Shown here piece by piece: positions 14,505-18,400 of a DNA stretch of 64,000 bases (its first letter is position 1; every line of letters begins with the position of its first letter). The stretch covers positions 5,084,001-5,148,000 of the forward strand of contig NC_092650.1 of the NCBI RefSeq assembly GCF_032118995.1, read 5' to 3'. Under the pieces are notes generated by a model. The model saw only the letters and a program-made list of their open reading frames with translations. It was not told the origin of the DNA and did not search any database. The position numbers and the translations under genes are program-made. The stretch comes from Asterias amurensis. Lineage: Eukaryota; Echinodermata; Asteroidea; Forcipulatida; Asteriidae.

Positions 14505-14562
14505 AAGCATCGGTTTACTTGGCTTCAAGGTAGTCTTGAGTTGGCCAATAAACGTCATAGGA
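14505..14562 (-). promoter_or_regulatory. SECIS element, form II, in the MsrA 3' UTR
   Basis: Read on the minus strand, the quartet ATGA (14558-14555) is followed after 12 bases by the unpaired AA of the apical bulge. The 5' stem GTTTATTGGC pairs with GCCAAGTAAAC (one bulged G). The apical mini-stem TCAAG-ACTAC-CTTGA makes it form II. The 3' side of the quartet is CGAT (14512-14509). Helix length, quartet, AA and mini-stem all fit the eukaryotic SECIS consensus. It lies about 930 bases after the MsrA stop and in the right orientation to recruit SBP2 and direct selenocysteine insertion at the in-frame TGA. Confidence 0.93.
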
Positions 14563-15490
14563 AGAGATCACACTAAAATGATAAATGCATTCTCCAGCAA
14601 AAGGTTGTGTTTCTGCCTGAATCACACACTACGTCTATACAGTACTTAAATTTATTAATATTAATGCACAGTTTAAGAATAAGCAACTCTCCAAATTCAT
14701 TGTAAAACTAAGCACGCAAATTAGAGCCTTTGGAACGCTAGGTGACTTGCCAAGTATATTACTTTAGAAATGTCGTTTTTTTTCAGGATTTTATGCCGCT
14801 TGAATCAAGTTTTTTAAAGTGCTGAAAGATCCTCAGAAATTTGTAGTCAAAATGCATAAAACCTTACTTTTATGCAATCCCCTGGTATAAGTATAAATCC
14901 TTTGTGAAAACCATTGTTTAATTCGCTATTTTTGCTTAGTAAGGTTAAATAAGTAAAAACAAATCTACAAAACTACAACCACTGAACATGCCATAAAATA
15001 CCACCCAAAATCAGTAATTCACCCTAAATAAAACGTTCACTCCAAGAATGAATTTATACCAAAGATAAGATAGCGAGGTCAGGAACCAGATTAAATGAAA
15101 TAAACAGTCTAGACCCCCTGGCAAAATAATGTCAGTGGCATCATTGCAAACGATGGTGTGTGCATTGCAACCTGTGTACTTAGGAATCACACTATGCATC
15201 ATCTACAGTGTTCACTTGTCATGAAAATTGGCGGAAGTTCAAAGTAGCTTTATCGTCTGCAGTGAGTACTTTTCTTCAACTTTTTTTTCTCTATTTAATC
15301 ACCCAAAAGCAAAAAAGTCAAACAATTTAATGGCCCACCTTATGAAATGATGCAATCGCACACCAGTTTGTTTTAAAATGTGATTTATTAAGGGACATGA
15401 TTTCGTCGAAATGCAAGGAAAGGTTAAACTTGTCATTCAAATAAACAAATTATCACTCCAGCAATCCCGCTTCTGACACGATTTAATTAT

Positions 15491-18400
15491 CTACTTCTTC
15501 ACCTTATTACGTACATATTCCATCTGCTCCTCGTTCAATGCAAAGTTGTCGATCTCCTTCTCGAGGTTCTTGGTCATCCCGAATCCTCCCATGTAGCCAT
15601 TGAGGCGGGAAGCAACGTGTGATGTGATCACATCCTTTGAGCTCAGGGCAAGACTCTTTAGAAGGCCCTGGTGTTGACGAAGCATGTACTTCTGGTGGTA
15701 ACTAGTGAAAGGTTGAAAAGACAACTTTAATTCTTTAACTTGTGGTAACATTTTCCAGAGAGTTGATCAAACATTAAAAAACCTTCAACTGCTAAGGTTG
15801 TGTATGGTTGCACATTAAGCTTATTGCACATGCAGATGGGAGGTACACACTGTGCAGATTATCATACTAAAGTCAAGCAAAGTGTATCAAACATTAAATA
15901 CCCTACTGAATGGTCAGGCGATACAAATTGTACATATTTTAAGTTCATAAGTTTAAAGTTTGAAAATCAAACTAATTTCCAACTCCAACAAATAAAATAT
16001 TACAGGTAATAGGCTACATGTTTTACTCAAAATAAGCAGGTCAAAAGTTTGTCAAAAAATGAGAAATTTTCGAGCACAGCAACAATCTGTATGGCGTTCA
16101 CTCACTTTCAATGGCACTGCCTGAGAAACCAAATTTGACATGTATGAGGAAATCACCTGAAAAGTTACATGCCTGCGTCCATGCGATCATGTCCTGTATA
16201 GAACGCTATTGAATACTATTTCTTAGTAATAAAAGTGTAATTTTGTCTTTAAGCTCCAGTTCGGCTGTACTTAACTGAAAAGAAACCAAAAGTTTGTTGT
16301 TTATACTCACTCCTCTGCATTGTAGAAGGTCTCTGCTTTCTTGATTCGCGTCTGGATCTTACGAGACACCTTGGATTGATGTTCTTCCAGTGTCTTCTCT
16401 GCCAATGCTTTCTGTTCGTCATTGTGATAGAAGATGGCGGACATGTACTGACGGCTTGTACAGGCTGTGCTGTCATGGTTGTTCCAGAAGATTGTAAGAA
16501 GAGTGTCATAGCTTGTTTGCTGCGGGTCAAAATCTACATCTATGGTCTCCGTGTGGTCACCACTGTGAATCAGGAGTTGAATAAATTATGTTGTTAATCT
16601 AGATTGCATTAACTACATGTATTGTTTTAAAGAATTTTTTTTAGGCTTTGGATGATAGGGGGGGGGGGCTTGAATCTCAAGAAAGTGGCCATCAGGTCCC
16701 ATTTTCATAGAATTGCTCTCGCTAAGAACTCTCACTGGACTGAAATATGTACCTAAACAATTTCTTACTATTTGCTGAACTTTAGGGAGGAGGTTTGGAA
16801 CTTAAGCCAACGTATATGTACATGTAGTGTACAGTAAAAGTGATGGAAAAAGAAATATTGCATGACTTATAGGCTGCCAGGTTACTGGCCAAATGACTGC
16901 ACTCTCGCTAGCCTTGTCCAAGGCATTTTACGCAAGCACCGGCCCACTTGAAATGCACAAACTGCATAATAATAATAATAATAATAATAATAATAATAAT
17001 AATAATAATAATAATAATAATAATAATAATAATAATAATAATAATAATAATAATAATAATAATAATAATAATAATAATAATAATAATAATAATAATAATA
17101 ATAATAGATACTATACCGCACGGTACATAACAGTACTTGATACCGTGGGGTCGAAGCATGGCTTTTCAAGGTATCAATGAGGTTACAACGAGTAACAACA
17201 ACCTCGAAAACAAACATGCTTTGACCCCACGGTATCAAGTACTGTTGTGTACCGTGCAGTATAGCATCTGATGCAGTTTGTGAAAAAGCAGCGGGCTGGT
17301 GCTTGCGTTAAGAGCCTTAGACAAGGCTACACTCTCGCTGGTGGTCCATAAGCGTTTTGGATCAATGGGTTTACATGTACGTAGATCTGCATATCTGGTA
17401 TCATAGGCTAAGTGTTTACATATTTCCAATTACTGGTACTGTGTAATCTCATTATTGCTGAATCATGTACAAAATGAATATGATGCCACATTTCTTGACT
17501 TTGAATGGACTGACTGTCAGATTTTTGTAGTTGTTCTGTTGACAGAATAAGAAGGACTTACAGGCTATGGTATGTAGGAGAACTCTTAGATCCTCCTGTG
17601 TACCCAACCCTGGTACGGATTATCCCCTTAGCGCAGCCAAACTGCGCCTCGGGGAACCAAAATCAGCTAAGCGCAAAAGTGGCCTTCTCCGTCGGCATGT
17701 CTGGTTCTTTACGTGGCATTGTGGATCGAGGCAACTGTGGGAGGAGACAAAACAGATTTTAAAAAGTTGAGTCATACACAACCTCTGAAGCGGCAGGAGA
17801 GGGAGAACACCTTTTAAGAGCACAATAGTTTTATTTCAAATATCAAGTAAATAAAGGCCTTTGAATAAACCACAAGGTCCGTCCCTGCACTTTGCCCTGC
17901 AGGATATCATCCTCAGAGTCAGAGGTGAATAATCTGGCATTTCCTGATGAAACTCCCTTGAGAGTGTGCTTCCTTCTTCCGCTACAACCATTCCAAGAAT
18001 AAAAGGTTTGTTCACTCTTTAAAAAATATAGTATTGTTTTTCAATGTTAGAAATTTTCAAGCAACATGTAAACTTGTAAGAACCCCAATGCAACCTGTAG
18101 TGTGTACAGACATTATAATTTTTTAGGGGAAGAGTATATTAATTCCCAATACCTTTTTTACTTTGAGTTAGCCACAAATGTGGGGGGTATTAGTAAATGA
18201 ATTGTGTGCTATAAGGTGTGGGCTTGGTAAAAGCATGGAGGAAGGAAATAAGGAGTTCGAAGAAATATCTTAAGCAAAAGACAAACTGCAACAACTAACT
18301 CTATTTTCAGAAAACTAACTCTATTTTCGGGAAACTAACTCTATTCTCGAGAAACTAACTCTATTTTCGGGAAACTAACTCTATTTTCGAGAAACTAACT

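Follow-up and report, generated by a model that had tools for sequence, protein, structure and literature searches.

An MsrA gene of the starfish Asterias amurensis, coding for an enzyme in the repair of oxidized methionine, carries an in-frame TGA at the codon for its catalytic residue, which raises the question of whether this codon is read as Sec, marks a gene in decay or an error in the assembly, or is bypassed to give a product without Sec. We addressed this question in a 64,000-nt stretch of contig NC_092650.1 (henceforth the window, in whose coordinates all positions are given) and conclude with high confidence that the gene encodes a Sec-containing MsrA, its TGA being decoded by means of a type-II SECIS in the 3' flank. 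Selenoprotein MsrA is the best reading because the gene is intact, has a single TGA at the catalytic codon, is followed on the right strand and in the right place by a SECIS-like hairpin, and has bacterial homologues, all 11 confirmed ones with TGA at this position. The same reading had been proposed from the letters of the window before any database search, and it held up.

An intact MsrA gene with one internal stop

The gene lies on the minus strand and comprises three exons with GT-AG at their junctions (Table 1), which join in frame to encode an MsrA of 206 residues. Exon 1 is flanked by cag and gtaagt, exon 2 by cag and gtgagt, and exon 3 is preceded by tag; the acceptor-like cag before 17734 suggests an earlier, putative 5'-UTR exon. 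In the joined frame, the TGA at 17665-17663 is the sole internal stop besides the terminal TAG (the two alternative frames have 9 and 13 stops), and it aligns with catalytic residue 16 of Clostridium oremlandii MsrA (CoMsrA), as expected from the claim of the sequence-only reading that a TGA occupies the catalytic position.

Table 1. Features of the MsrA locus in window coordinates
Feature	Position	Strand	Remarks
First coding exon	17562..17734	minus	Carries the catalytic motif S-U-F-W-F; ATG at 17719-17717; Pfam PMSR begins at residue 12
In-frame TGA	17663..17665	minus	Residue 19, with Met1 at 17719; catalytic Cys/Sec position
Second coding exon	16311..16562	minus	Active-site Glu58, Gln91 and Tyr92, and Cys87
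Third coding exon	15491..15701	minus	His139, Tyr142, C-terminal helical domain, TAG stop
Type-II SECIS candidate	14508..14558	minus	About 0.93 kb past the MsrA stop codon, in the 3' flank
AATAAA	14436..14441	minus	Nearest polyadenylation-like signal beyond the SECIS candidate

This structure bears on two other accounts of the TGA. The locus might be a pseudogene or a dying Cys-MsrA, in which a catalytic TGC or TGT has mutated to TGA and the hairpin has arisen by chance, but it retains 206 codons without any other internal stop as well as consensus splice signals. Alternatively, the segment with the TGA might be spliced out to yield a product without Sec, but exon skipping would lose the whole catalytic motif.

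Intron 1 harbors a nested palindromic, MITE-like element at 16909-17329. Its inner arms of 55 nt are 93% complementary, its outer arms of 59 nt are 80% complementary, and a long three-base (ATT-type) microsatellite lies between the outer arms.

Family membership and active site of the predicted protein

The assignment of the conceptual protein to MsrA was confirmed by family searches in which the TGA was written as Cys. Pfam PMSR (PF01625) matched residues 12-149 with 142.5 bits (cut-off 23.7), Pfam MsrA_helical (PF20939) matched the C-terminal part with 39 bits (cut-off 23.7), and the match to NCBIfam TIGR00401 exceeded its cut-off. Genome-wide, a single match to PF20939 was reported, at 15506-15631 of the window within the third MsrA exon, by a search of 491,506,623 bases in 23 contigs that views genes exon by exon and scores the best candidates only; none of 14 control genomes matched this domain. 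Comparison with solved structures returned 30 matching sequences, the top six of which, including 4lwj, had E values from 1e-46 to 3e-45, and 4u66 and 7c13 align to the starfish protein with letters identical to those of 4lwj. Next after these six came 4w8c, a C. oremlandii form from which the helical domain has been deleted (1e-39), followed by MsrA structures of other origins at 4e-29 (2j89), 2e-25 (1fvg and 1fva, which we take to be bovine MsrA) and weaker values. With both domains, the predicted starfish protein is of the same two-domain MsrA type as the C. oremlandii selenoprotein.

The catalytic residue is followed by Phe-Trp (U19-F20-W21), and Tyr50, Glu58 and Tyr92 of the substrate site are kept. 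Indeed, all the active-site residues listed for CoMsrA in the passages of PMC4333827 on this enzyme (Phe17, Trp18, Tyr47, Glu55, Gln89, Tyr90, His137 and Tyr140) are conserved. Both glycines of the G-C/U-F-W-G motif (residues 15 and 19 of CoMsrA) are replaced, by Ser18 and Phe22, giving SUFWF as opposed to the bacterial GUFWG/H (motif passage of a 2026 review, PMC13188914). Replacement of both glycines is a point in favor of a decaying gene, against which stands the conservation of the remaining named active-site residues. Nor does the departure exclude membership of MsrA, since the second glycine varies in 3 of the 11 bacterial relatives too. As regards the 1-Cys type of MsrA, which has no resolving Cys, the protein lacks Cys beyond residue 87 but contains Cys29 and Cys87. 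Cys87 aligns with Thr85 of CoMsrA, four residues ahead of the active-site Gln-Tyr pair, and could act as a resolving thiol.

Bacterial relatives carry TGA at the aligned codon

Prokaryote genomes were scanned with six search patterns, one of which required Cys at the catalytic codon, so that the set did not favor Sec. The scan yielded 33 stretches, 11 of which were confirmed by tblastn as encoding a relative. In alignment with the starfish TGA, all 11 have TGA, a count that concerns close relatives, the only ones such a pattern scan finds, and is uninformative on more distant Cys forms. Beyond this TGA the frame stays open until the next stop, 184 to 197 codons on; the reading passed through a stop only when this was a TGA among the first 20 codons of the match, and each locus has one such TGA. 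Identity to the starfish protein ranges from 33.3 to 48.5%, with the TGA column counted as a match. The column of Ser18 holds Gly in every relative and is the sole invariant column at which the starfish departs, while that of Phe22 holds Gly in eight, His in two and Thr in one. A scan of viral contigs matched two stretches, neither of which codes for a relative.

That TGA stands at the catalytic codon of 11 of 11 confirmed loci counts against the pseudogene account, in which a Cys gene was broken at this very codon. It also bears on the suspicion of a base error in the assembly, with TGC or TGT as the true catalytic codon. A single assembly was examined, which leaves room for such an error, but the error would have to strike exactly the catalytic codon of a gene that has both a SECIS-like hairpin and TGA-bearing bacterial relatives. 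Moreover, if the assembly examined is the published one of A. amurensis, it was built with PacBio HiFi reads according to the assembly passages of PMC10625585. We therefore regard a base error as hardly credible.

A type-II SECIS candidate in the 3' flank

Every part of the form-II SECIS described in the sequence-only reading is present. On the minus strand, ATGA (14558-14555) is followed after 12 nt by AA (14542-14541) and, on the 3' side, by CGAT (14512-14509); the stem has 10 bp with one bulged base, and the 5-bp mini-stem closes a 5-nt loop. The core has a folding energy of -12.2 kcal/mol (z = -2.9), as low a value being reached by 9 of 1000 shuffles, whereas the 86-nt stretch around it is unremarkable (z = -0.38; 68 of 200 shuffles as low).

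The frequency of comparable sites was estimated with a custom-written SECIS grammar (ATGA, spacing, AA, arms, GA) that was composed with the element already in view and therefore flatters its statistics. In the 1.19-kb 3' flank of the gene, the candidate is the only match to this grammar. In 400 first-order Markov resamples of the window, 64 kb of one strand held on average 0.24 sites scoring at least as high. Three such sites, the candidate included, occurred in 528 kb-strand of real sequence, made up of both strands of the window and of one 10-kb stretch from each of 20 scaffolds of the same genome. Among the lower-scoring sites of these 528 kb-strand, at least four match or exceed the candidate in stability, and the candidate alone is both as good by the grammar and as stable. 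The expected number of such sites in the 1.19-kb flank is about 0.005, a figure somewhat flattered by the after-the-fact grammar, and it argues against the chance hairpin that a pseudogene would require. With the Rfam SECIS model, whose sensitivity to invertebrate type-II elements is uncalibrated here, nothing reached the gathering score anywhere in the window, nor E <= 10 within 14300-15600. This failure of recognition counts for the pseudogene account, which, taken with all the points raised above, we consider very unlikely. Readthrough of the TGA independent of a SECIS is the other route to a product without Sec, but it leaves both the SECIS and the choice of the catalytic codon unexplained; we give it, together with splicing out of the TGA segment, next to no credence.

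One of the two other high-scoring sites, at 26601 (minus), has a score of 8.3, higher than that of the candidate, and was set aside as a SECIS: it folds more weakly, at -8.0 kcal/mol, and looks like a repeat, since it shares letters with a site in L017 on another scaffold. The letters common to 26552-26601 (minus) and L017 near 4558 (minus) lie on the 3' side (GTGTGCTTTCAGAT) and may belong to a dispersed repeat with a partial likeness to a SECIS.

Upstream of the SECIS candidate, the 3' flank past the MsrA stop codon has six polyadenylation-like signals (AATAAA at 15389 and 14656; ATTAAA at 15487, 15331, 15299 and 14922), and one AATAAA follows shortly after the candidate, so the end of the transcript would decide whether the SECIS is used. 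From their positions, the upstream signals could give rise to mRNAs without the SECIS.

Other features of the window

A Pfam scan of the window took in 10 of the 25 listed open frames. The frame at 37617-37982 (plus) has no Pfam match at E <= 0.01; its end resembles what we take to be the membrane part of HERPUD proteins. The open frames at 46590-47189 (plus) and 49094-49585 (minus), some 2 kb apart and in opposite orientation, are nearly identical by eye; the former has no Pfam match, and the pair is probably an inverted duplicate of a repeat. A 441-codon open frame at 1-1323 (minus) extends to the window edge and has a weak CG-1 match of 18.1 bits, below the cut-off of 23.5. Rfam reported tRNA matches at 63032-63104 (plus) and 27854-27926 (minus), with 38.6 and 32.4 bits, which are perhaps tRNA-derived SINEs; ARAGORN under the bacterial code reported none in the window, at these two sites or elsewhere.

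Proposed decoding and catalysis

In the mechanism that we propose as the most likely, the type-II SECIS in the putative 3' UTR would direct the eukaryotic machinery to insert Sec at the UGA of codon 19. The SECIS-binding protein would probably be SBP2L, as in sea urchins, for which it is reported as the only SECIS-binding protein (PMC3328465). In the predicted enzyme, the selenolate would attack the sulfoxide of the substrate, most likely methionine-S-sulfoxide, so that methionine leaves and a selenenic acid forms. The selenenic acid would then be resolved by a partner thiol, which may be supplied by glutaredoxin/glutathione, as in Clostridium, or perhaps by the protein's own Cys87 or Cys29. 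A bolder version, which we think rather improbable, makes the protein an echinoderm offshoot of the two-domain Sec-MsrA, in which the active-site loop is rebuilt (SUFWF) and Cys87 serves an internal selenenylsulfide and not the glutaredoxin-only cycle of the Clostridium enzyme. Were it true, the starfish would possess a Sec-plus-Cys variant of a type that has been described as lacking a resolving thiol.

As a selenoprotein MsrA without this elaboration, which it almost certainly is, the starfish protein is a well-supported new example of a known enzyme type and no surprise; alone, it does not point to a new mechanism. Annotation by automatic means would probably cut the gene short at its TGA or give it a wrong start there.

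Comparison with known Sec- and Cys-MsrA

The sequence-only reading had placed Sec-MsrA in green algae, some bacteria and a few marine invertebrates. Here "a few" understates the case, since the MsrA passages of PMC3473315 describe Sec-MsrA as widespread in marine invertebrates, with entries for five of six genomes (sponge, placozoan and amphioxus among them) and Lottia lacking it; one Capitella-type entry there is incomplete and without a SECIS. The corresponding passages of PMC4244043 report Sec-MsrA in the centipede Strigamia, Daphnia, Ixodes and amphioxus, state a SECIS for each centipede selenoprotein, and infer an ancestral Sec-MsrA that later turned to Cys in insects and vertebrates. The starfish gene resembles these marine-invertebrate and arthropod forms in being an animal MsrA with a catalytic UGA (as described in these parts of PMC3473315 and PMC4244043). 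It thereby adds a starfish case of a selenoprotein said to have become a Cys protein in vertebrates and insects, and it fits the view, put forward in the same part of PMC4244043, that the last common ancestor of the centipede, Daphnia, Ixodes and amphioxus already possessed Sec-MsrA. Echinoderms are absent from the MsrA passages of both papers and are mentioned for SELO only in the relevant part of PMC3281104. Among open-licence papers we recognized no echinoderm or starfish Sec-MsrA in print, and an earlier report may exist. MsrA is listed among the animal selenoprotein families of SelenoDB 2.0 (family passages of PMC3965025), and MSRA ranks among the Sec proteins with the widest distribution in algae (MSRA passages of PMC7539508). 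By the description in the latter, the enzymes of Chlamydomonas and other algae are eukaryotic Sec-MsrA like that of the starfish.

Vertebrate Cys-MsrA (1fvg/1fva) has the catalytic domain in common with the starfish protein (93 bits), but Cys replaces Sec.

The closest comparison is with CoMsrA, which is a selenoprotein in nature and consists of a catalytic and a helical domain; 4lwj is its full-length form, and its active site collapses when the helical domain is deleted (structural passages of PMC4333827). In the Clostridium enzyme, Sec is 20-fold more active than Cys, and the reductant is glutaredoxin, not thioredoxin (activity passages of PMC4333827 and PMC4479559). When Cys stands for the catalytic residue of either protein, the two are identical at 84 of 191 aligned residues. 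The starfish protein shares with 4lwj the catalytic and helical domains, Sec (predicted for the starfish) at the homologous position and, apart from the two motif glycines, the named active-site residues. Unlike CoMsrA, which has no Cys (same passages of PMC4333827), it has Cys29 and Cys87. Finally, CoMsrA is the product of a bacterial gene with GUFWG, whereas the starfish gene has SUFWF, and its Sec insertion would rely on a SECIS in the 3' UTR.
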